From positions 1-39,399 of the IMG/VR virus record IMGVR_UViG_3300012920_009833: 39,399 bases of DNA; one strand, written 5' to 3'. A program made the translations under genes and the position numbers. This document shows positions 148 to 10,438 of this stretch, piece by piece. Position 1 is the first letter of the stretch. Every line of letters starts with the position of its first letter. The stretch comes from a virus. Below the pieces are notes generated by a model. It did not search any database, had not been told where the DNA came from, and worked only from the letters and a program-made list of their open reading frames with translations.

Positions 148-1113
148 ATGTGGGAAAAGTATAGCTGTGTTTATAGAGATGTTGACCAAGAGGAAAACGT
201 TTTATCAATCGATGATCTTAATAAACTATTTCATTACAAAAGCACTCATACTGATCATACGAGTATTTGGCAAAACAATGAGACAGGTGAGTTTTTTGGG
301 CACACCATTCGGTTTGATCCACAATGGGCATCGAGCCCATGGTCTGGCGGCTGGTACAATTTCAACCATACAAGGGCAGTTTGGCAAGACTATTTTGCCA
401 ACACTTTTTTTAACAATTATTTTGGCAACAGGTCTTTAGATTATGGCGACATCAAAGTTGATGAAGAAATTGTTTACACCGAAAATGATGTTTTAGCTAA
501 AGTTAAAAACGCAAGTGTCTTAGTCCTTGGTGGCGGTCCTACTTTGGACGATCTAGATCTTGATAAAGTAAAAGATTATGATATTGTCATTAGTTGCAAC
601 TCTTATTTCAAGAGCGAAAAATTAAAAGATGTAAAAGTTGACATTGCCTTAGTAGGTCAGGGCACAGACCTTGCCGACCCAGAACTTGTTCAAAGAATTA
701 AAAGAGACGAAACTCTTATTGGTTTTGAACATTCACATAAGTTAACTATCCAAATTATCGATGAGTTTACTAAGACAAATGACACAAACACTTTCCTATA
801 TTTAACTAGGTATTTTTCAAGACTAGGCTTTGCTTCTAGAGCCGTGGTGCTAGCAAACTGTCTAGGCGCAAAGAGTGTTGATGTTATTGGTTTTGATGGG
901 CATCGACAAAAGAAAGAAGATAAACATGGGTTTGAAAAAACAAAGAGCTTACCTGAGTACTACAACACCATAAAGTATGAAGAGGCTGCCGTAGTTTTCT
1001 GGGATTACCTTACTTCAACCTTTGAAACCGAAACTAGTGTTCTATCTGAAAACAGCGAATATAATGTGTATAATGGTGTCAAGGAATATGTGAAGAACGA
1101 GGTAGAGGGATAA
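148..1113 (+). CDS. GT42/MptE-like Rossmann-fold protein, putative glycan transferase (copy 1)
   Basis: This 321-residue protein has an N-terminal extension of about 118 residues with no recognised domain, rich in Trp, Asn and His. It is followed by a Rossmann-like core. The core shows VLVLGGGPTL (124-133), then SCNSYF (149-154), then a helix-strand unit ending in VIGFDGH (246-252), and FWDYL near 284-288. The glycine motif followed by a CN-x-F motif resembles CMP-sialic acid transferases of family GT42 (Campylobacter Cst type) and the MptE/MAF group, some of which act in flagellin glycosylation. A paralogue lies at 5893-6921. Setting between NeuB-type genes and upstream of a NeuA gene supports a role in transferring a CMP-activated nonulosonic acid, but this is inferred. 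I cannot identify the catalytic histidine expected in GT42. A GAGAGG ribosome site lies at 135-140, seven bases before the ATG. Confidence 0.6.
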   Translation: MWEKYSCVYRDVDQEENVLSIDDLNKLFHYKSTHTDHTSIWQNNETGEFFGHTIRFDPQWASSPWSGGWYNFNHTRAVWQDYFANTFFNNYFGNRSLDYGDIKVDEEIVYTENDVLAKVKNASVLVLGGGPTLDDLDLDKVKDYDIVISCNSYFKSEKLKDVKVDIALVGQGTDLADPELVQRIKRDETLIGFEHSHKLTIQIIDEFTKTNDTNTFLYLTRYFSRLGFASRAVVLANCLGAKSVDVIGFDGHRQKKEDKHGFEKTKSLPEYYNTIKYEEAAVVFWDYLTSTFETETSVLSENSEYNVYNGVKEYVKNEVEG

Positions 1114-2085
1114 ATGAGTGCTAAAAAAGTTCTCATTACAGGTGGCACAGGCTCCCTGGGTAGGGCTCTTATAAAAAGAATAAAATGTCTTGGCTGGCAA
1201 ATAATCGTTTACAGTCGAGATGAGGGCAAACAAGCATTATACTTTGGGCAAGACAAAGACATAATTAGAGTTGTAGGAGATGTAAGAGATCTTGATAAAC
1301 TTTCTACTACGTTTCGCATCCACAAACCCGATTACGTTATTCACGCCGCCGCTTTAAAAAGAGTGGACGACATGGAGTTTCATCCTGATGAGTGTGTAAA
1401 GACGAATGTCATTGGCTCTCAGAATGTTGCCACGGCGGCACTAAAAACAGACGTTGAAAAATGTATTCTTATATCAACTGACAAAGCTTGTTTACCAGTA
1501 AACGTATATGGGTCTAGTAAGTTTATTGCAGAAAGAGTCTTTACGAACTTTGATTACTATTCTGACAACACTATTTTTTCAAGCGTAAGATACGGAAACG
1601 TGATCGCTAGTAGGGGATCTTTTATCCCTCTCTGGATGGACCTGATTAAATCCAGCAAAGTAGTTCCAGTAACAGACCTAGAGTGTTCCAGATTTTTGTT
1701 TACCCTAGGTGACGCTGTGGATACGGTATTAGGGGCACTTGATTTGGCACAGGGTGGGGAAGTATTTATTCCAAAGATTAAATCATATGATTTACAGACA
1801 GTTTTGGATTCGTTAAAAGTATTGTGTAAAACAGAAGATATTAAATATACTATTGTTAATATGAGACCCGGTGAAAAGATACATGAAGACATGTTGGCTA
1901 TGACAGAGTTGGACTTTACCTATGAAGCTAGCGATAAACTATTGGTGGTAACACCTCAATACACTAGAAAGTCTCACACATATAGTATCAAATATCAAGG
2001 ACCACATTTTAATTCTTCGCTGCATCTTAGTCAGGATTCTTTAGAATTGGCAGAGTTGATTAAGGAAGGGACTAAGGATAAATAA
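1114..2085 (+). CDS. UDP-HexNAc 4,6-dehydratase, PseB/FlaA1-like SDR
   Basis: This is a 323-residue extended short-chain dehydrogenase. It has the NAD-binding motif GGTGSLG at 10-16, the HAAALKRV segment at 77-84 typical of the FlaA1/PseB group, and the active-site run STDKA at 121-125 with Tyr132 and Lys136 (YxxxK). The family removes water from UDP-GlcNAc to give a 4-keto-6-deoxy sugar. The PseB branch also inverts C5 and starts pseudaminic acid synthesis. The presence of Tyr132 favours the PseB type over the CapE/FnlA type, in which a Met usually takes that place. Length is close to the usual 330. It directly follows the upstream gene (TAA then ATG) and overlaps the next by one base (TAATG). 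The substrate is inferred from family. Confidence 0.85.
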   Translation: MSAKKVLITGGTGSLGRALIKRIKCLGWQIIVYSRDEGKQALYFGQDKDIIRVVGDVRDLDKLSTTFRIHKPDYVIHAAALKRVDDMEFHPDECVKTNVIGSQNVATAALKTDVEKCILISTDKACLPVNVYGSSKFIAERVFTNFDYYSDNTIFSSVRYGNVIASRGSFIPLWMDLIKSSKVVPVTDLECSRFLFTLGDAVDTVLGALDLAQGGEVFIPKIKSYDLQTVLDSLKVLCKTEDIKYTIVNMRPGEKIHEDMLAMTELDFTYEASDKLLVVTPQYTRKSHTYSIKYQGPHFNSSLHLSQDSLELAELIKEGTKDK

Positions 2086-2927
2086 TGAGAGTTTTAGTTA
2101 CTGGAACTTCAGGTATGTTGGGTTCTGTTGTTGTGAGAGATTTAAAAAAGTTTAATCTTTTTTACGAAACAATAGAATCTGGACCAAGTTCGGTTTTGGA
2201 TTTAACAGATCTTGAGCTTGCAGAGAGGTTTGTAAGAGATCAAAATCCTGATGTTGTTATTCATTTGGCTGCTATGACATCATTAAAAAAGTGCGAAGAG
2301 GACCCTGACAAGGCTAAGATTTTACATGCTGACTTAACAAAAATACTTGCACAATCCTGTAACCGTATGATATATGTTTCAACTGACTCAGTTTTTGATG
2401 GATTGTCTTGCGTCCCTTATGGGGAGGCTTCTAATACAAACCCCTTGAATGCTTATGCTAGAACAAAACTTTTGGGCGAGGCTATTGCAAAAAACAACAA
2501 CAAGAATTCCTTAATCATCCGAACAAATATTTTTGGCAGCAAGCCTGGAATGCTAGCTGATTGGGCACTCCAGTCAAACAAGGATAATAAAGAGATAAAT
2601 GGGTTTGTCAATGTTAAGTTTAACCCAGTATACGTTGGGCATTTAGCGGCAGCGATTAGAGGAATGATCAACCACAATGTTACAGGTGTTGTTAACTTTG
2701 CTGGTGATACTTGTCTTAGTAAATATGAGTTCTTAAAAATATTGTACAATAGGTTTAATATGGATGCGGATATGATTAAGCCCAAGACCTACACTGAATC
2801 TAAGATAGACATAAAGAGACCAAGGTACACTTGCTTACAAACTGATTATGTATCAAAAGAGCTTGGCTACTCTTTTTGTTTGAATGATGGCTTAGATAAA
2901 TTATTTGAAGAGTACAAGGAGAACTAA
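2085..2927 (+). CDS. RmlD-like NAD(P)-dependent sugar reductase
   Basis: A 280-residue SDR of the RmlD (dTDP-4-dehydrorhamnose reductase) type. It shows GTSGMLG at 7-13, VVIHLAAMT at 57-65, STDSVFDG at 99-106, and YARTK with Tyr124 and Lys128. RmlD enzymes reduce the C4 keto group of a nucleotide sugar. Placed directly after a PseB/FlaA1-type dehydratase, it could reduce that enzyme's 4-keto product, as WbvR-type reductases do in UDP-L-rhamnosamine and L-quinovosamine pathways. In a pure pseudaminic acid route an aminotransferase would be expected here instead, and none is seen. Overlap with the upstream gene is one base. The last bases carry the ribosome site of the next gene. Confidence 0.82.
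   Translation: MRVLVTGTSGMLGSVVVRDLKKFNLFYETIESGPSSVLDLTDLELAERFVRDQNPDVVIHLAAMTSLKKCEEDPDKAKILHADLTKILAQSCNRMIYVSTDSVFDGLSCVPYGEASNTNPLNAYARTKLLGEAIAKNNNKNSLIIRTNIFGSKPGMLADWALQSNKDNKEINGFVNVKFNPVYVGHLAAAIRGMINHNVTGVVNFAGDTCLSKYEFLKILYNRFNMDADMIKPKTYTESKIDIKRPRYTCLQTDYVSKELGYSFCLNDGLDKLFEEYKEN
2916..2921 (+). promoter_or_regulatory. Ribosome binding site that fixes the start of the second neuB-type gene
   Basis: AAGGAG lies seven bases before ATG 2929. A longer in-frame reading from 2905 would place this site inside the coding sequence and add eight residues absent from the usual NeuB N-terminus, so 2929 is preferred. Confidence 0.75.
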
Positions 2928-2928
2928 G

Positions 2929-4011
2929 ATGTATTTTTCTGTAGATGGAAAAAAGATTGGACCTGACAGTCCAACTTATTTTATTGCAGACATTGCTGCT
3001 AACCATGACGGAGATCTGGATAGGGCACTTAAGCTTATCAAGTTAGCTCATGAGGCAGGTGCAGACGCTGTAAAATTTCAACACCACGACTGTTCAAAAT
3101 ATGTTAGTGATTACGGATTTAAAAATCTTGGATCAAAGATGAGTCACCAAACTAAGTGGAACAAAACAATTTATGAGGTCTATAAAGACGCTGAAGTTCC
3201 ATTGCAGTGGACAGATGTTCTAAAGGATTATTGCGATGAGCTTGGTATTACGTTTTTTACAACCCCATATGATTTGAATATGGTTGACAAATTAGACCCA
3301 TATGTACCAGCATTTAAAATTGGCTCAGGCGATGTTGCTTGGGAAGCTATGGTGGAGAAGGTGTCCCGCAAGGCTAAGCCTGTATTTATTGCCACTGGCG
3401 CAGCAAGTATGAATGAAGTCTTTAGAACGATGGAGGTTCTAGACTATCATAATTTACCAGGGATCTGCTTAATGCAGTGCAACACCAATTACACTGGTGA
3501 TATGGAAAACTTTAAGTATATTAATTTGAATGTTTTAAAGACGTATAAAAAGTATTTTCCAAATGTTGTTTTAGGGTTAAGTGATCATACGCCGGGACAT
3601 GTGACTGTCCTTGGTGCTGTTGCCCTAGGCGCACGAGCCATTGAAAAGCACTTTACAGATGACACCACTAGAAGTGGACCAGACCATCCGTTTTCTATGG
3701 ACCCCAAAGCCTGGAGAGAGATGGTGGACTTGACAAGATTGTTGGAGCAATCTCTTGGATCAGAAAAGAAGGAAGTTCAAGAAAACGAGAAAGAAACGAT
3801 TGTTCTCCAAAGGAGGTGCATTCGAGTCAACAAAAACATCAAGTATAGAGACACTATTTCAGAAGAGGATATTGAGTTTCAAAGACCGGCACCTCCGGGC
3901 TCTCTTAGTCCAAACTTGGTTCATGAAGTTGTGGGCAAGCCTCTTATGCGAGCAATACAACAAGGGGAACACTTGACGGTTGAACACTTGCCAAGGAAAA
4001 ATGGATGCTAG
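2929..4011 (+). CDS. neuB: Nonulosonic acid synthase (N-acetylneuraminate/pseudaminate synthase) with SAF domain
   Basis: This 360-residue enzyme condenses phosphoenolpyruvate with an N-acetyl-hexosamine sugar to make a nine-carbon sialic-like acid. The NeuB TIM barrel spans about 15-280: FIADIAANHDGD at 18-29, GADAVKFQ at 44-51, FKIGSGD at 129-135, NTNYTG at 185-190, GLSDHTPG at 216-223 and EKHFT at 239-243. His220 and His241 match the metal-binding histidines of NeuB. A SAF antifreeze-like domain follows at about 290-355. Sequence alone does not tell N-acetylneuraminic from pseudaminic or legionaminic acid, but PseB-like and GNAT neighbours lean to the bacterial 6-deoxy types. It overlaps the GNAT gene by seven bases. 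A SAF-less paralogue ends at position 147, so the phage carries two synthases. Confidence 0.92.
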   Translation: MYFSVDGKKIGPDSPTYFIADIAANHDGDLDRALKLIKLAHEAGADAVKFQHHDCSKYVSDYGFKNLGSKMSHQTKWNKTIYEVYKDAEVPLQWTDVLKDYCDELGITFFTTPYDLNMVDKLDPYVPAFKIGSGDVAWEAMVEKVSRKAKPVFIATGAASMNEVFRTMEVLDYHNLPGICLMQCNTNYTGDMENFKYINLNVLKTYKKYFPNVVLGLSDHTPGHVTVLGAVALGARAIEKHFTDDTTRSGPDHPFSMDPKAWREMVDLTRLLEQSLGSEKKEVQENEKETIVLQRRCIRVNKNIKYRDTISEEDIEFQRPAPPGSLSPNLVHEVVGKPLMRAIQQGEHLTVEHLPRKNGC

Positions 4012-4583
4012 AAAAAGATGGTATCACATTGCGTGCCATAGAAAAAGAAGACTTACCAGTTTTACAAACTTGGAGAAATGACGAGAATCTAAGAAAGTAT
4101 TTTCGAGAGTGGCGAGACTTTTCACTAACACAGAAAGAGAAGTGGTATGATCAAATGATTTTTGATGACCGCTTTCAGATGTTTGTTATAGAAAGCCAGG
4201 ACAAAATGTTTTCTAAGAAGGCTACGATGCTTGGTGTGGCTGGCATTACTTACGTTGATTGGGTTAATCGCCATGGCGACGTTCATTTTTATATTGGTAA
4301 AAATGGTCAGTGGATAGACAAGACGGTAGCTCCCGTAGCATTTGAGATTATTTTAGATTATGGTTTTAATACTATGAATCTAAACAAGCTTTGGGCGGAG
4401 ATATATCAAATCGATAGTCTTAAGCTTAAGTTTTTTATGCAGCGTGGTTTCAACGTAGACGCTAGTCTGAGAGAGCACTACTATTACCAGGGTCAGTATT
4501 ATGATTCTCACATTTTGTCGATGTTAAAAAAGGAATATGATGAAGAACTTCAAGAAAGTGATGGTGATAGCAGCACACCCTGA
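4005..4583 (+). CDS. GNAT-family N-acetyltransferase, RimJ/RimL type (PseH-like position)
   Basis: A 192-residue acetyl-CoA transferase. The N-terminus has the typical ITLRAIEKEDLPVLQTWRND pattern of this GNAT branch at 7-26. The core strand GVAGITYVD, the segment DVHFYIGKNGQW and the C-terminal MNLNKLWAEIYQ...FFMQRGF pattern follow the fold. The acyl-CoA loop (GKNGQW then a helix) is less glycine-rich than the consensus. In pseudaminic acid synthesis PseH, a GNAT protein, acetylates the C4 amino group, and location between the synthase and the deacetylase fits acylation of an amino sugar. The substrate is inferred. AAGGA at 3993-3997 is a suitable ribosome site. Its 3' end overlaps the next gene by 44 bases or slightly more, the longest overlap in the window. 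Confidence 0.8.
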   Translation: MLEKDGITLRAIEKEDLPVLQTWRNDENLRKYFREWRDFSLTQKEKWYDQMIFDDRFQMFVIESQDKMFSKKATMLGVAGITYVDWVNRHGDVHFYIGKNGQWIDKTVAPVAFEIILDYGFNTMNLNKLWAEIYQIDSLKLKFFMQRGFNVDASLREHYYYQGQYYDSHILSMLKKEYDEELQESDGDSSTP

Positions 4584-5241
4584 CGATGATGTTTTAGGTT
4601 GTGGCGGCACGATTAGTAAATTAGCTCGCCAAGGCGTAGATATTAGAGTTGTATTTATCGCTGAGGGGACAACCTGTAGGTACCAACACCCAGGAAACTT
4701 CGACCAAAGGGTAATAAAAGAAAAGATTGACTACAGAAACAAATGTGGCATAAAAGCTTTACAGGCACTCGGTGTTGATAACTATGTTTTTTATAATTTG
4801 CCATGTGGTAAACTCGACCAAGAGCCTGTTATAAGTATCGGAAAAATTATTGAGCAAGAAATAAAAAAGTATGAGCCGGACACCATCTTCACGCACTCAA
4901 AAAAGGATGTTAATGTTGATCACCAAATAGTATATCAGGCGACCTTGCAGGCAACTAGACCGGGCGCTAAAAACGCAGTGGACGTTGTGTTCTCATATGA
5001 GGTATTGTCATCCTCAGAATGGAATTTTTCTGAACCTTTTGCACCAAACTTTTTTATTGAAATATCAAAAAAAGATGTTGACAACAAGGTTAAAGCTATG
5101 TCATATTATGACACAGAAGTGAAGCCATTACCATTTCCTAGGTGCGAAGATATGATCCGTATGACGTGCAGCACAAGAGGTTCACAAATTGGTGTTAAGA
5201 ATGCTGAAGCCTTCTCATTGATTAGGGGTCTGGTTAGGTGA
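4540..5241 (+). CDS. PIG-L/LmbE-family zinc N-deacetylase
   Basis: About 233 residues. The signature AHPDDDVLGCGG lies near the N-terminus, with an Asp in place of the usual Glu of AHPDDE. DVNVDHQ about 110 residues further on supplies the third zinc ligand. By analogy with MshB, the first His, the second Asp of the PDD run and the later His bind zinc, and the first Asp is the general base. The family removes N-acetyl groups from GlcNAc-type sugars. Between a GNAT and a formyltransferase-fold gene it suggests exchange of one N-acyl group for another. ATG codons occur at 4537 and 4540. The AAGGA at 4530-4534 is five bases before 4540, so I chose that. The overlap with the acetyltransferase is 44 bases. 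The end overlaps the next gene by four (GTGA). Confidence 0.88.
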   Translation: MKNFKKVMVIAAHPDDDVLGCGGTISKLARQGVDIRVVFIAEGTTCRYQHPGNFDQRVIKEKIDYRNKCGIKALQALGVDNYVFYNLPCGKLDQEPVISIGKIIEQEIKKYEPDTIFTHSKKDVNVDHQIVYQATLQATRPGAKNAVDVVFSYEVLSSSEWNFSEPFAPNFFIEISKKDVDNKVKAMSYYDTEVKPLPFPRCEDMIRMTCSTRGSQIGVKNAEAFSLIRGLVR

Positions 5242-5900
5242 AGATTGTTTGTGTCGGCTATAGAGAATGGGCGATGGAGATATACCAGCGTCTAAGACTC
5301 TTTTATGGCAACAGGCATGATTTTGTTCTTGTAGATAAAAAAACATATTCAGAAGACTTACTTGACCAAGAGAACCCTGACTTGGTTTTGTTTTATGGGT
5401 GGAGTTGGAAGATACAAGAAGCGGTTATTGATAAGTATAAATGCTTAATGCTGCACCCGTCGCCCTTACCAAAATATAGAGGTGGCTCTCCGATCCAAAA
5501 TCAAATTATCAATGGTGAAACTTCTTCGGCAGTAACTATTATTGAGATGACTAGTGACTTAGACGCAGGAGATATTTTAGCCCAAGAGAAATTTGCCCTT
5601 GATGGCGACATAAGTACGATCCTTAAAAAAATTACTAGAATCGGAACTAGATTAACGAAGAGGATTATTTCTGGTGACTTTGTTAGGGTTAAACAAAATG
5701 AAAGCGAAGCCACCTTTTATAAGAGAAGAAACAAGAGAGACAACGAAATTACTATTCGAGAAATACTAAGCGAGGACAGTCAATACATTTACAACAAGAT
5801 TAGGATGCTTGGAGATCCGTACCCATACGCATATATCAAGGCTGCGGATGGCAAAAAAATTCTTATAAAAGAAGCCTCGATAGGGGGTGACAGTGATTAA
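5238..5900 (+). CDS. Formyltransferase-fold protein (methionyl-tRNA/sugar N-formyltransferase family)
   Basis: A 220-residue protein starting at GTG 5238, coupled to the deacetylase stop by a GTGA overlap. It shows HPSPLPKYRGGSPI at 73-86, VTIIEMTSDLDAGDI at 99-113 and a short C-terminal domain. In E. coli Fmt the catalytic residues are Asn106, His108 and Asp144. Here His73 and Asp109 are present with the same 36-residue spacing, but the Asn position is Met71. Sugar N-formyltransferases use N10-formyl-tetrahydrofolate to formylate amino sugars, so this could act on the product of the PIG-L enzyme. The Asn-to-Met change makes standard activity uncertain. It may use another acyl donor or be impaired. 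A housekeeping Fmt role is unlikely in this setting and at this length. Confidence 0.78.
   Translation: MKIVCVGYREWAMEIYQRLRLFYGNRHDFVLVDKKTYSEDLLDQENPDLVLFYGWSWKIQEAVIDKYKCLMLHPSPLPKYRGGSPIQNQIINGETSSAVTIIEMTSDLDAGDILAQEKFALDGDISTILKKITRIGTRLTKRIISGDFVRVKQNESEATFYKRRNKRDNEITIREILSEDSQYIYNKIRMLGDPYPYAYIKAADGKKILIKEASIGGDSD
5882..5887 (+). promoter_or_regulatory. Ribosome binding site supporting GTG 5893
   Basis: AGGGGG ends five bases before the GTG at 5893. The earlier in-frame GTG at 5887 overlaps this site, so 5893 is the better start for the next gene. Confidence 0.6.
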
Positions 5901-6921
5901 GTGGAACGAGTGTATATTAGTTTACAGCAATGGTAGTTTTATAGACGATGCCATGATGCAAGACATACGACAAGCGTTTATGTTTTATTACCAACTTATA
6001 GGCAAGAAAAAACCAGAGTATAATGTATGGTACGACACCGAGAAAGATTTTTGTTTTGGTTTAGATTTTACAAAAGAAAGATTCTTTTCTAAGACCTCAA
6101 CTGTTCACACAAGAAGAGGAAGAACTCAGATAGCACCGGTTATGCGGTCTTGCCCGGAAACTTTCCTAAGCAAAGATTTAAGTTTTGTTAAAGATCAATT
6201 GGCTAGCAATTTTGGTGCAGACGCCAATATCGGAACAGAAGCGATCATTCAAGACATTAGCGACTGCAAGAAGTTTAAAAATTCAAAGATCCTCATCGTT
6301 GGCGCTGGACCAACCGCTACACGGCAAAGCTGGAACCCTGATGATTATGATTATATTTGGTCTTGTAACCACTATTTTGAAAGTGAACTATTAAAGGATG
6401 TAAGGATAGATTTGGCAACACTGGGGGGTGAGGTAGATTTATCTGCTGATAACAAAAAGCTTCATGACCATATCAATAGAAGTAACACCATCTGTTGTTT
6501 TGATAACAATGACGATCATCACCTACCAAAAAGATTTTCAGATAAAAAGACAATCTTTGAGAACTATCCATCATTTTATGCCCATCTAAGATTTAATGCA
6601 AGGAATGGTGCTGTGCCAAGATTGTTATGTTTAGCAACTATGATGAAACCAAAGAGTGTTGATTTTGTAGGTATGGATGGGCTAAGACCTGATGAAGCTG
6701 GTGGTAGTGCTTGTGAACATGCGTTCCAAATAGATAAGAAATGGAATGGTACAGTAGATTATCACCTTTACAAAAGACACTATGTTATGTTATGGGACTA
6801 CATCTTAAATGTTTTAGATAAAGAGAGGCAAATAAAATTTCAAAATTTAGGAGAGGGATTCTCCGCTAATCAATCTACTGACATTTCTAGAAAAGAATTT
6901 CCTCTTGAGAGAGAACAATGA
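5893..6921 (+). CDS. GT42/MptE-like Rossmann-fold protein, putative glycan transferase (copy 2)
   Basis: A 342-residue paralogue of the protein at 148-1113. An N-terminal extension of about 130 residues shows no clear relation to that of copy 1. The core then aligns: ILIVGAGPTA, the SCNHYFESELLKD segment (SCNSYFKSEKLKD in copy 1), a helix leading to SVDFVGMDG, and LWDYI where copy 1 has FWDYL. Copy 2 carries His residues just before LWDYI at positions where copy 1 has Ala and Ile. It sits immediately before the NeuA-type gene (ATGA overlap), which favours a CMP-nonulosonic acid transferase of GT42/MAF type. The family call comes from motif shape, not from a search. Start is GTG 5893, and GTG 5887 is possible. 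Confidence 0.6.
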   Translation: MIKWNECILVYSNGSFIDDAMMQDIRQAFMFYYQLIGKKKPEYNVWYDTEKDFCFGLDFTKERFFSKTSTVHTRRGRTQIAPVMRSCPETFLSKDLSFVKDQLASNFGADANIGTEAIIQDISDCKKFKNSKILIVGAGPTATRQSWNPDDYDYIWSCNHYFESELLKDVRIDLATLGGEVDLSADNKKLHDHINRSNTICCFDNNDDHHLPKRFSDKKTIFENYPSFYAHLRFNARNGAVPRLLCLATMMKPKSVDFVGMDGLRPDEAGGSACEHAFQIDKKWNGTVDYHLYKRHYVMLWDYILNVLDKERQIKFQNLGEGFSANQSTDISRKEFPLEREQ

Positions 6922-7613
6922 AAAAGATAGACCAAGTTGCATTCATCGTCCAAGCTAGGCTTGGTTCTCAAAGGGTGCCACAAAAGATGATTAGACCTTT
7001 TGCTGACACAACCCTTTTAGACATTATGTTAGATAAGCTTACGAACAAATCGCCGATTATCCCAAACAAGAATGTGTTCTTGTCTGTTCACGAAAAAGAA
7101 CTAAAAGATATTGGCAACAAATATGATCTAAACATATTTCACAGAAGCGAGGCATCGGCAAACTCAGAAGGCACCCCAGTCACTGAAATGTATGAGTGGT
7201 GGGATAAACTGCCCCATGAGTATTGTGTGTTTATCAATGCTTGTTGTCCGTTCTTGACAGTTGATAGTATCGAAAGGTTTACGTCTGATTACTTAAAGTC
7301 AGACGCCAACGGTATGTTTGGGGTTGTTAATAAAAAGAACTATTACTGGGACGAGACTGGTGCAATGGTAACGCCTTGGCCAGATGGTCAGGATGTAATG
7401 AATACAAAAGTTGTTGGTGTTACCAAGGAGGCAGCCCATTGTTTGTATGCTGGTAAACTTTCTGATATTGGTAAAGGTATTTGGATGGGAAGGTTTGATG
7501 TTCCCGGTGATATAGAGTTATACTCAATGGATAATGAGTTTGAGATATTAGACGTGGATTATGAGTGGCAGTTTAAAATGTGCGAGGCACTCTATCAGGC
7601 GGGGTATAAATGA
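6918..7613 (+). CDS. neuA: CMP-nonulosonic acid cytidylyltransferase (NeuA/PseF-like)
   Basis: A 231-residue nucleotidyltransferase that would activate the nonulosonic acid with CTP to the CMP-sugar, the donor for sialyl-type transferases. The nucleotide-binding motif is VQARLGSQRVPQKM at 11-24, close to the AR-x-x-S-x-R-x-P-x-K form of the SpsF/NeuA group. HRSEASANSEGTP, INACCPFL and the acidic C-terminal EFEILDVDYEWQ (magnesium-binding type Asp pair) follow in the right order. Length is normal for the family (about 225-235). It is joined on both sides by four-base ATGA overlaps, which suggests translational coupling with the transferase-like genes on either side. A cytidylyltransferase for a different acidic sugar cannot be excluded. 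Confidence 0.85.
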   Translation: MKKIDQVAFIVQARLGSQRVPQKMIRPFADTTLLDIMLDKLTNKSPIIPNKNVFLSVHEKELKDIGNKYDLNIFHRSEASANSEGTPVTEMYEWWDKLPHEYCVFINACCPFLTVDSIERFTSDYLKSDANGMFGVVNKKNYYWDETGAMVTPWPDGQDVMNTKVVGVTKEAAHCLYAGKLSDIGKGIWMGRFDVPGDIELYSMDNEFEILDVDYEWQFKMCEALYQAGYK

Positions 7614-8425
7614 AAGTAGCAGCTTGCTTGTCTGGGCAGCTAGGTTCTTTTAGGAGGACTTATAACAACCAATATCAAACTTTTTTAAACGAAAACAATT
7701 GCGATGTGTTTGCCTTAACATCAAATGCCGTATCACAGCGTGTTAACATGAATTTACATTATCCGCCTTCAACCCCTGTCTATGAATATTTGCCCAATGT
7801 AAGATGGTATAAGTCCTACCCACGACCTTATGGTATTATTTACAATACTGATGAGAGAGCATTAAATTATTTGATTGGCGCTACCTACAAAGACAAATTA
7901 AAGAAGCTAAAAATACTAGACGAGTGTGCTAAAGAAAGTGTAAATGATATCAAGCTCCCGAGCAAGTGGGACTGGATGAGAAAAAGACAATTGAATAAGA
8001 TGTATGAGTGTAACAATATGTTGCGCTTATACGAACAAGAAAATAATGCTAAGTATGATATCGTTATCAGAGCTAGGTTTGACATCGCATTAGCCAAGAA
8101 GGTTAATGTTGAACAAATAGTATCTCAATATGATAACATTGATAACAAGCTATTTGGTGTGGGTGGATTCCCTTGCACGCCTCCAAATGTTTTTATGAAA
8201 GAGTTTCTTTGTGATGGTTTTGCATTCGGTACGCCAGAGGTTATGGACGTATATACGAGTTTATATGAGCAAGAAAAGCCGTACCCTCACTTAGAAGAAT
8301 ACGATGAGTATCATAGCCAATGGGGAGAGCATGTTGAGTCTCAATTGAGAACACACTTAGAAAGGAATGGTATTGAAATTGTTCACGTCATAAATGAACG
8401 AAAAGATTACCAAATTGTAAGATGA
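7610..8425 (+). CDS. Putative glycosyltransferase of an unassigned family
   Basis: A 271-residue protein. The start, VAACLSGQLGSFRRTY (2-17), is a strand-turn-helix that recalls a group of viral and bacterial putative glycosyltransferases. Further in, NNMLRLYEQENNAKYDIVIR then AR-FDI gives a YDxVIRxRxD pattern that could serve as the metal or nucleotide-sugar-binding acidic motif. DGFAFGTPEVMDVY and the closing histidine-containing EHVESQLRTHL helix fit a GT-A-like fold. No signal peptide or membrane segment is seen. It lies in the sugar cassette with ATGA overlaps on both sides and GGGG at 7601-7604 before the ATG. Donor and acceptor are unknown, and the transferase call is a moderate-confidence inference. 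Confidence 0.5.
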   Translation: MKVAACLSGQLGSFRRTYNNQYQTFLNENNCDVFALTSNAVSQRVNMNLHYPPSTPVYEYLPNVRWYKSYPRPYGIIYNTDERALNYLIGATYKDKLKKLKILDECAKESVNDIKLPSKWDWMRKRQLNKMYECNNMLRLYEQENNAKYDIVIRARFDIALAKKVNVEQIVSQYDNIDNKLFGVGGFPCTPPNVFMKEFLCDGFAFGTPEVMDVYTSLYEQEKPYPHLEEYDEYHSQWGEHVESQLRTHLERNGIEIVHVINERKDYQIVR

Positions 8426-9483
8426 GCAACGCAAGTGCGATGAGGAATATTTTAGAGGTTTACAATAAATACTTTGATAATGACGATCGTCATTTACTCG
8501 AAGAAGTGACCTCTTGTAAGTTTGATACCTTGATGTCACTAATATCCGAGTTAGATACTCGTACTTTTTGTGATATTTTTACGGGGGTAAAATCAATAAA
8601 TAAACCACGACTAAACGAAAGTGGTTTACAGGTTTATAGATCACTTCTTGCAGATAAGGTGCTGTCCGCAAGAGCAAAAAAATCCGGCTACCATGAATTA
8701 AAAGAATACCAAATGTTAATGCAGGATGGTTTTCTTATCCTAGAGGATTTTTTACCCGAGGAAAACTTTGAGTGGTTGGAGTCAAAGGTTCAGCAATTTG
8801 TTTCTATGCAAATGCCCGAGGGTGGTCGTGCTCCAATCCATAATCCTGAGAAGTTTTATAGCCTTAATCAAAAGATGTTAACATACCTTAAGATGGTTTG
8901 GGGCGTTACAGAATTTTATGACGACCTAAGAAATGGATACCCCAGGGTGGATATCGATAATTTAATACATAAAGATTACGACGGAGATGTACAAAAATCT
9001 TTACATACAGACACCTTTCACAACACAGTTAAGGGGTGGCTTTATATTGATGATGTTGCTGAGCACCAAGGTCCGTTTGCCTATGTTAAGGGCTCACATA
9101 GAAACACACAACAAAGAGTTAGTTGGGACTACGAAAATAGTAAACTAGCTTATGACCCTTCGCATCCGCTTTACAAGAAAAGAACAGAACGACGTGACAC
9201 CTGGGTTATGCCAGGGTCATATCGTATTGCAGATCATGAAAAAGGTGAAGGTGAAAATGCAGAGCTTAAAAGACTTGGATACGATGAGCCAATTTTATGC
9301 ACTGGTAAGAAAAATACACTTGTATTAGCTACAACAAAAGGATTTCATAAGAGACATGAGGTAGTGGAACCAGGCACTCAAAGATTAACAGTTCAAATCC
9401 AGTTCAGGGTCAACCCTTTTCCCCTAACTACAACTGACGCTCGAAACTATAGTTTGGGGCAAGATTTTTTGGAGCAACAATGA
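8422..9483 (+). CDS. Phytanoyl-CoA dioxygenase (PhyH)-like Fe(II)/2-oxoglutarate oxygenase
   Basis: A 353-residue protein with a mainly helical N-terminal part (1-90) and a PhyH-type double-stranded beta-helix after it. The iron triad appears as HTD (His195, Asp197) plus a distal His in the segment KGFHKRHEV (His309 or His312), and Arg321 nine to twelve residues later fits 2-oxoglutarate binding. DGFLILEDFLPEE at 102-114 and DDVAEHQGPFAYVKGSHR at 210-227 are typical family landmarks. Such enzymes hydroxylate small molecules, lipids or sugar-linked groups. Here, between a transferase-like gene and a methyltransferase, hydroxylation of the glycan or of a lipid carrier is possible. The substrate is unknown. 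Confidence 0.85.
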   Translation: MSNASAMRNILEVYNKYFDNDDRHLLEEVTSCKFDTLMSLISELDTRTFCDIFTGVKSINKPRLNESGLQVYRSLLADKVLSARAKKSGYHELKEYQMLMQDGFLILEDFLPEENFEWLESKVQQFVSMQMPEGGRAPIHNPEKFYSLNQKMLTYLKMVWGVTEFYDDLRNGYPRVDIDNLIHKDYDGDVQKSLHTDTFHNTVKGWLYIDDVAEHQGPFAYVKGSHRNTQQRVSWDYENSKLAYDPSHPLYKKRTERRDTWVMPGSYRIADHEKGEGENAELKRLGYDEPILCTGKKNTLVLATTKGFHKRHEVVEPGTQRLTVQIQFRVNPFPLTTTDARNYSLGQDFLEQQ

Positions 9484-10124
9484 AGAAAGTATTTTTAGAT
9501 TGTGGAGCTAACAACGGATGCTCATTTCGAGCGTTTAAGGAATATTATCCTGACTGGAGACAATACGAAGTTCACTGCTTTGAGCCACACCCAGGATTTA
9601 AAAGATTCTTTCAAGATCTCCCAGTTAAGTATCACCCAGACGCTGTTTGGGTTGAGAACGGTGAAATGGATTTTTATGTTACAGGTATGGCTTCATCAAC
9701 ACTTCTTGAAGAAAAAGTAAAAGCACAAAATAAAAATGTACAAGCTTTAGTTAAGGTGCCAACGATAGATCTTAGTAGTTGGATTATAGAAAACTTTAAC
9801 AAAGATGATCATATTGTGCTAAAACTGGATATCGAAGGTGCGGAGTACGATTTGGTTGAAAAAATGGACAGGGATGGATCAATCGAATATATTTCTGAAA
9901 TCCATGGTGAGATTCACGGTCCAAAGTGTGGCAAGGGCTACGAGGACGATATGAAGTTGATTCGTAGTTTTAAAAAGCACGGCTTGGATATCTATGCTTG
10001 GTCAGCAGCAGATGACGAAGATATGAGTTTCAAAGAAAACATTCTGGACGAAGAATATATGGTGAAAGTAATGTACCCAAACTGGATTAAAAAAGGTTAC
10101 GTTATTGAAGGGTTCAATCCGTGA
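9480..10124 (+). CDS. FkbM-family SAM-dependent methyltransferase
   Basis: A 214-residue methyltransferase. SAM motif I is FLDCGANNGCS at 5-15, the acidic residue after strand 2 is Glu35 in HCFEPHP, and the FkbM signature LKLDIEGAE lies at 115-122 or so. FkbM enzymes O-methylate sugars, glycans or secondary metabolites and are common in viral and bacterial surface-polysaccharide clusters. Length is usual for the domain. It overlaps the dioxygenase by four bases (ATGA) and the phosphatase by four (GTGA), so the three are probably translated together. O-methylation of the sugar built by the upstream genes is the simplest reading. Confidence 0.87.
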   Translation: MKKVFLDCGANNGCSFRAFKEYYPDWRQYEVHCFEPHPGFKRFFQDLPVKYHPDAVWVENGEMDFYVTGMASSTLLEEKVKAQNKNVQALVKVPTIDLSSWIIENFNKDDHIVLKLDIEGAEYDLVEKMDRDGSIEYISEIHGEIHGPKCGKGYEDDMKLIRSFKKHGLDIYAWSAADDEDMSFKENILDEEYMVKVMYPNWIKKGYVIEGFNP

Positions 10125-10438
10125 TTGTTTACATTGACATTGATGAAACTATCTGCACTCACCCAGAAGGTGATAAGGATAAGCCAAGAGATTATTCTTT
10201 GGCAAAACCGATAGTTGGAAATATTAGAAAAGCAAACGCACTTTATGATGCTGGTCATACGGTTGTTTACTGGACCGCCAGGGGTGCGACCACAGGCATT
10301 GACCATAGAGAACTAACTGAAGCTCAGCTAGACGAGTGGGGTGCGAAAAGACATGAACTTAAATTAGATAAACCATTTTATGATTGGTTTATAGATGATA
10401 GAAATATTAACACTAAGGATTGGAGGCATCCGCTATGA
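10121..10438 (+). CDS. Small HAD-superfamily phosphatase, capsule-biosynthesis type
   Basis: A 105-residue HAD protein beginning at GTG 10121 and overlapping the methyltransferase stop (GTGA). HAD motif I is DIDET (Asp6, Asp8), motif II is the Thr of YWTARG (Thr52), a Lys at 84 may be motif III, and motif IV is IDDRN (Asp92, Asp93). The length is short, without a cap domain, as in the capsular-polysaccharide-linked HAD group. It could remove phosphate from a sugar-phosphate such as a nonulosonate 9-phosphate, which would fit NeuB-type chemistry that begins from a phosphorylated sugar. That substrate is inferred. This is the last recognisable gene of the sugar cassette. Confidence 0.83.
   Translation: MIVYIDIDETICTHPEGDKDKPRDYSLAKPIVGNIRKANALYDAGHTVVYWTARGATTGIDHRELTEAQLDEWGAKRHELKLDKPFYDWFIDDRNINTKDWRHPL

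Follow-up and report, generated by a model that had tools for sequence, protein, structure and literature searches.

The locus described here raises the question of what two related proteins encoded among the sialic-acid-type sugar genes of a bacteriophage do, and on what they act. The two proteins, A and B, are encoded by IMG/VR virus record IMGVR_UViG_3300012920_009833, the whole of which (39,399 bases) was analysed as one stretch, the window. They lie in a compact cassette on a single strand, in the first 10.4 kb, and from ~10.6 kb (10607-39399) come genes of the late class of a T4-like phage with a contractile tail. The window is therefore a T4-like phage contig, a point absent from the initial annotation of this DNA. 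We consider A and B to be paralogues of ancient origin within a family of phage cytidine monophosphate (CMP)-nonulosonate transferases, with a probability of roughly 0.7, and a CMP-nonulosonate is quite probably their donor.

The A gene directly follows the end of NeuB1, a short NeuB without SAF domain, and the B gene overlaps the start of the NeuA gene by 4 bp; an upstream GTG at 5887 is a possible alternative start for B. In codon comparisons with relatives 94% and 88% identical, the ratio of nonsynonymous to synonymous substitution rates (dN/dS) is 0.032 for A and 0.043 for B, and this strong purifying selection indicates that both are working genes. The cores of A and B share 30% identity over 211 residues (E = 1e-26) and contain the motifs that the initial annotation had listed. 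Its account of the two open reading frames, their shared core and their neighbours (NeuB-type gene regions beside both, and NeuA after B) is thereby upheld, while its description of the N-termini as unlike is not, as discussed below.

Since circular sampling was to be avoided, IMG/VR was searched with NeuB1 alone; it yielded no fewer than 572 stretches encoding a NeuB, from which 80 loci were retained. The A/B family is present in 72 of these 80 phage loci (57/64 after removal of near-copies), and in two of the family-free loci, L130 and L122, a member is found elsewhere on the same contig (L028 represents the contig of L122). Direct adjacency to NeuB1 or NeuA was observed for 73 of 93 family copies, against a mean of 19.8 and a maximum of 36 in 2000 permutations. 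Such an arrangement argues against A and B being glycosyltransferases that have this fold but draw on a different nucleotide sugar, with NeuB and NeuA nearby only because they share a sugar island. That reading would accommodate the weak sequence resemblance to every enzyme that has been assayed, the lack of a visible His188 equivalent and the several glycosyltransferase types found in the islands. However, only about 20 adjoining copies would be expected, the matches described below are specific to CMP-sialic acid enzymes, and GT29 sialyltransferases replace the family in some NeuB1 phages, so that we regard another nucleotide sugar as improbable.

Among the 22 records searched for GT29, only L196 (PF00777, E = 4e-32) and the huge phage LR756508 (8e-32) gave matches, in both cases near NeuB, and no A/B-type member was found in these two NeuB1 phages. 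The presence of a second sialyltransferase family at the same place provides good circumstantial evidence for the role of A and B. LR756508 (segment L036, LR756508.1 309194-326809), a 484-kb uncultured phage, has seven GT29 matches in all, and a NeuB1-like gene lies near several of these. GT29 enzymes (ST6Gal1, ST8SiaIII and those of the two phages) thus resemble A and B in structure and in location, but differ in that PF00777, the model with the sialyl motifs, matches neither A nor B and is found in none of 20 related contigs.

The family has so far been found in phages alone. When cellular genomes were subjected to the same NeuB1 search, none of 80 loci contained an A/B member, and a scan of a genome collection with the A/B alignment also found none; a cellular source of A and B was rejected on these grounds. 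Across 50,697 phage records at E <= 1e-5, a NeuB1 relative was detected in three and relatives of A, B or NeuA in none, against the at least 572 NeuB-encoding stretches of IMG/VR. The trait is almost unseen in cultured phages and very common among related wild ones. For the NeuB1 gene itself a cellular source is possible: on a Neomarinimicrobiota chromosome contig (L037, PAHD01000025.1), NeuA-like and KdsC-like genes come after a gene whose NeuB product has 71% identity to phage NeuB1. In a Kyanoviridae single-cell virus (L035, MH319754.1 72482-103288), NeuB1-like and cytidylyltransferase genes lie near a photosystem D1 (PsbA)-like protein.

The best Pfam family for both proteins is the MptE-like family PF01973 (30.5 bits for A and 18.3 for B, against a cut-off of 34.6). 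Of 33 phage relatives, 26 match this model weakly, and five show PF06002, the model for GT42; an A orthologue, L018:7977-8768, clears the PF06002 cut-off (26.2 vs 25 bits). The top nine matches of an A-type profile (11 proteins) among all PDB sequences are all GT42 sialyltransferases (E = 8e-4 to 0.17), and a profile of all 33 relatives ranks the GT42 enzyme 9c08 first (E = 1.8e-3). The B-type profile alone finds no GT42 match in the PDB; the predicted structure of B does match 9c08. With AlphaFold models (A: mean predicted local distance difference test, pLDDT, 88 and predicted template modelling score, pTM, 0.90; B: pLDDT 85.5, pTM 0.88), Foldseek retrieves MptE (8sbu, 4e-5) and then GT29 enzymes (ST8SiaIII, 1.5e-4) for A. 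For B it retrieves ST6Gal1 with CMP-sialic acid (4.6e-4), ST6Gal1 and 9c08 (9.8e-4), and then MptE (1e-3). Therefore, the structural matches are not confined to pterin pyrophosphokinases, and the core fold bridges the MptE/Maf domain on one side and sialyltransferases of GT42 and GT29 on the other. The proposed likeness to GT42 and to the Maf/MptE domain has held, through profile kinship to solved GT42 enzymes and a PF01973-like core, and profiles, structures and gene order together give good support for a CMP-sugar transferase. Within the MptE/GT42 superfamily, A and B are best placed in a new branch found in phages, which would function in the manner of CMP-sialic acid transferases and stands outside curated GT42, Maf, MptE and GT29.

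The name of PF01973 and the leading structural match of A would also suit a 6-hydroxymethylpterin pyrophosphokinase of the archaeal MptE type (8sbu, from M. jannaschii), or related nucleotide chemistry without glycosyl transfer. Although the fold is shared, B fits sialyltransferases better than MptE, the sequence profiles find GT42 and miss MptE, and no pterin gene is annotated in the cassette or around A and B, the setting being instead the constant NeuB/NeuA link seen in the 72 loci. We therefore consider pyrophosphokinase activity very improbable.

Residues were mapped onto the GT42 enzyme Cst-II by sequence alignment, and their conservation was counted over 81 relatives. The G-x-GPS loop is kept, as are the Asn residue in (S/R)CN (68/81), an invariant Gly at a helix start and an invariant GxD. 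The position of Arg129 is basic in most relatives (K in 43/81, R in 19/81), that of Tyr156 is variable, and that of Tyr162 is occupied by His (H260 in A, H276 in B) in 67/81. In Cst-II, we take His188 to be catalytic and Tyr156 and Tyr162 to bind phosphate. This set is not recognizable in the A/B family from the alignment, and H260/H276 is the best candidate for the catalytic base. The initial annotation had looked for a matching His in a CMP-sugar pocket; the correspondence is not clean, as the conserved His sits at the Tyr162 position.

Several results weigh against the assignment of A and B as CMP-nonulosonate transferases. No conserved His occurs near the His188 position across the 81 relatives. 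Neither protein reaches the PF01973 cut-off, and neither matches the curated GT42 model PF06002, only PF01973 being found for A at E <= 1 and for B at E <= 0.1. The top structural match of A is a pterin pyrophosphokinase, and template modelling (TM) scores to the leading solved structures are only 0.19-0.46 with large root mean square deviations, implying kinship at the fold level and not close homology. In addition, within the DNA that was examined, no A/B family member and no recognisable GT29 is seen in the NeuB1 phages L135, L162 and L188.

In the family tree, A-type sequences form a clade of 11 rows (Shimodaira-Hasegawa-like approximate likelihood ratio support 100) and B-type sequences one of 18 rows (98). 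Members of both clades co-occur in L009, L013/L014, L016, L018, L022 and L029, so that the duplication is old and the pair has been retained. The initial annotation considered two transferases for one or two CMP-sugars, but one transferase per CMP-sugar does not hold as a rule: the 112.7-kb L016 contig has one NeuB and two family members, whereas others combine two or three NeuB (three in the L028 contig) with a single member. Since NeuB and family-member counts are unrelated across 20 contigs, one transferase per NeuB pathway was rejected. Because the pair is kept even with a single NeuB, different acceptor positions or successive steps seem most likely, and not one donor each; for this division of labour the odds appear evenly balanced.

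It had been proposed that unlike N-termini give A and B their choice of acceptor. The N-termini are unlike in pairwise reading only: A-type and B-type profiles of this region align with an hhalign score of 30.8 (probability 71%), compared with 19.1 for the best of 200 column shuffles, and in the two models the core is preceded by one and the same succession of elements (strand-helix-strand-strand-helix-strand-strand). Across the 81 non-redundant relatives, the stretch ahead of the GxGPS loop measures 13-233 residues, the region being short or absent in many, which implies that it is optional in the family. The N-termini are a distantly homologous, diverging and optional extension. On these data, the reading as unrelated acceptor modules was rejected, and the proposed role in acceptor choice finds no support in them.

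We propose that the phage NeuB enzymes would make sialic-acid-like nine-carbon sugars during infection, that NeuA would charge them with CMP, and that A and B would transfer them to acceptors in the host cytoplasm, at distinct positions or in successive steps. The likeliest acceptor would be one of the virion proteins of the phage, or else a short glycan begun on such a protein by GT4 enzymes of the cassettes. The cassette of the window encodes no transmembrane-like protein. In scans of large relatives, each with working controls, no Wzx (0/20), PF02397 (PglC-type, 0/20), WecA-type (0/17) or PF00303 protein (thymidylate synthase/dCMP hydroxymethylase family, 0/17) was found. These absences favour a soluble, cytoplasmic acceptor, for which a virion protein is the most natural choice in a phage; we put the virion forward tentatively.

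The same enzymes might instead cap host surface glycans, such as the lipopolysaccharide core or another host-made sugar, which would alter the receptor and prevent superinfection. Those GT42 enzymes whose function is known cap lipooligosaccharide (9c08 is named as a lipooligosaccharide sialyltransferase), the lipopolysaccharide core is accessible to cytoplasmic glycosyltransferases, and the GT4, FkbM and PhyH proteins of the cassettes could act on lipopolysaccharide. The missing Wzx, PF02397 and WecA-type genes and transmembrane-like protein speak against it, and a lytic T4-like phage would gain little in a cell being lysed, although superinfection exclusion is conceivable; host-glycan capping is thus rather unlikely. 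Attachment of the sugars to phage DNA, of the kind that other phages carry out with glucose, arabinose or a pentose, appears the least probable of these alternatives. We know of no GT42 or GT29 enzyme that acts on DNA. Phages do modify DNA through sugar pathways that they encode themselves, as in Shewanella phage Thanatos (PMC12838424), but the hydroxymethylcytosine route would call for the PF00303 enzyme that the 17 large relatives lack.

Against the virion as acceptor, no T4-type late promoter TATAAATA is seen upstream of the cassette genes, a result that carries little information. The relatives are contigs of unknown completeness, making each absence weak evidence. Protein glycosylation, which the initial annotation raised through the likeness to Maf proteins, survives as an option; in a phage its target would probably be a virion protein and not flagellin. 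Taken as a whole, the proposal that many uncultured T4-like phages coat virion proteins with sialic-acid-like sugars, through a dedicated pair of cytoplasmic transferases from a family so far found only in phages, is one that we advance with reserve.

Compared with known systems, A and B share with GT42 enzymes (Cst-I, Cst-II and P. multocida 9c08) the core order, the G-x-GPS, (R/S)CN-F, GxD and (Y/H)xF(D/E) motifs, the best PDB profile matches and NeuB and NeuA as partner genes. They differ in low identity and the extra N-terminal part, besides the His at Tyr162, the missing His188 counterpart and the PF06002 result. With the Maf flagellin glycosyltransferases (Maf_flag10/PF01973) they share a PF01973-like core, nonulosonate genes alongside and possible direct protein glycosylation. 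Maf proteins have a three-domain architecture (PMC11339370), whereas A and B, of ~320-340 residues, are modelled with one core domain and a short N-terminal part, and are encoded on a phage contig, with no flagellin. In the open-licence literature searched, no phage nonulosonate transferase is described.

The features of the cassette are collected in Table 1.

Table 1. Genes and motifs of the nonulosonate cassette in the window
Feature	Coordinates	Strand	Basis
NeuB1 (short NeuB, no SAF domain), C-terminal 48 codons	1..147	+	matches end of 277-aa NeuB1 L005:7167-8000
Protein A, MptE/GT42-like putative CMP-nonulosonate transferase, 321 aa	148..1113	+	PF01973 E=4e-7, below cut-off
A N-terminal extension	148..447	+	distant homology to B extension; hhalign 30.8 vs shuffle maximum 19.1
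A core motif GGGPT, residues 128-132	529..543	+	aligns with Cst-II GNGPS; G130 80/81, P131 76/81
A motif SCN, residues 149-151	592..600	+	aligns with Cst-II RCN31; N in 68/81
A His260 in HxF(E/Q)	925..927	+	aligns with Cst-II Tyr162; H 67/81, N 11/81
PseB-like UDP-sugar 4,6-dehydratase	1114..2085	+	PF02719 E=4e-78; TIGR03589 E=2e-77, below cut-off
RmlD-like reductase	2085..2927	+	PF04321 E=2e-45
NeuB2, second NeuB/PseI-like nonulosonate synthase with SAF domain	2932..4011	+	PF03102 E=4e-68, PF08666
GNAT N-acetyltransferase, PseH-like	4005..4583	+	PF13302 E=3e-13; TIGR03585 E=1e-13, below cut-off
PIG-L-type N-deacetylase	4537..5241	+	PF02585 E=4e-25
N-formyltransferase	5238..5900	+	PF00551 E=5e-16
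Protein B, MptE/GT42-like putative CMP-nonulosonate transferase, 342 aa	5893..6921	+	PF01973 E=0.002, below cut-off
B N-terminal extension	5893..6222	+	profile comparison with A extension
B core motif GAGPT, residues 137-141	6301..6315	+	family alignment
B motif SCN, residues 157-159	6361..6369	+	family alignment
B His276 in HxF(E/Q)	6718..6720	+	family alignment
NeuA/PseF-like CMP-nonulosonate synthetase	6918..7613	+	PF02348 E=8e-12; TIGR03584 weak
Conserved cassette protein phrog_13607, function unknown, possibly glycosyltransferase	7610..8425	+	
PhyH-like dioxygenase	8422..9483	+	PF05721 E=1e-7
FkbM-type methyltransferase	9480..10124	+	PF05050 E=4e-11
Small HAD-like phosphatase	10121..10438	+	phrog_1238 E=4e-25, phrog_415 (polynucleotide kinase) E=3e-8; recurs in cassettes

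A PF03102 synthase, a PF02348 CMP-nonulosonate synthetase and a PF02719 dehydratase are all present in the window, which identifies a nonulosonate cassette; PF03102 occurs in 20/20 related contigs. NeuB1 is complete in L005, a 99% identical relative. Since NeuC (PF02350) is absent from all 20 related contigs, the precursor for NeuB1 must be supplied by the host or made by an unrecognised enzyme. The RmlD-like gene occupies the slot held by a DegT-type aminotransferase in related cassettes, and this swap, together with the PIG-L deacetylase and the formyltransferase (2085-5900), suggests an unusual, possibly N-formylated nonulosonate. The PhyH, FkbM and small HAD genes (8422-10438) recur at the 3' side of related cassettes, which suggests that the glycan is trimmed or decorated further. 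The cassettes also contain a third protein with this fold, a GT4 enzyme fused to a C-terminal MptE-like domain (GCGPSL; L005:5076-7157 and L009:2962-4917); in L004/L005, which are near-identical relatives, its gene lies directly upstream of that for NeuB1. The same islands encode other, more distant proteins that match PF01973 weakly and have GPS-type motifs (L028:488-1294, L028:8749-9480 and L011:3252-4043).

The late region encodes gp25-like and gp6-like baseplate proteins, an FmdB-like zinc ribbon protein, very large structural proteins (1631, 3408 and at least 1400 residues) and a gp55-like late sigma factor, whose PHROG match is weak and which is conserved at 51-65% beside the cassette in relatives. 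By its gp6-like protein, 33% identical over the full length to that of Flavobacterium phage immuto, this is the nearest cultured kin. The source virus is uncultured, infects bacteria and is probably marine.

A and B are shown here in their full genomic setting. Should the virion be the acceptor, sialic-acid-like coats would be present on many uncultured phages, a matter of relevance to receptor binding, to grazing and to the decay of particles. The A/B family also connects MptE, Maf, GT42 and GT29 in sequence space, and is therefore useful for tracing the origin of sialyltransferases.

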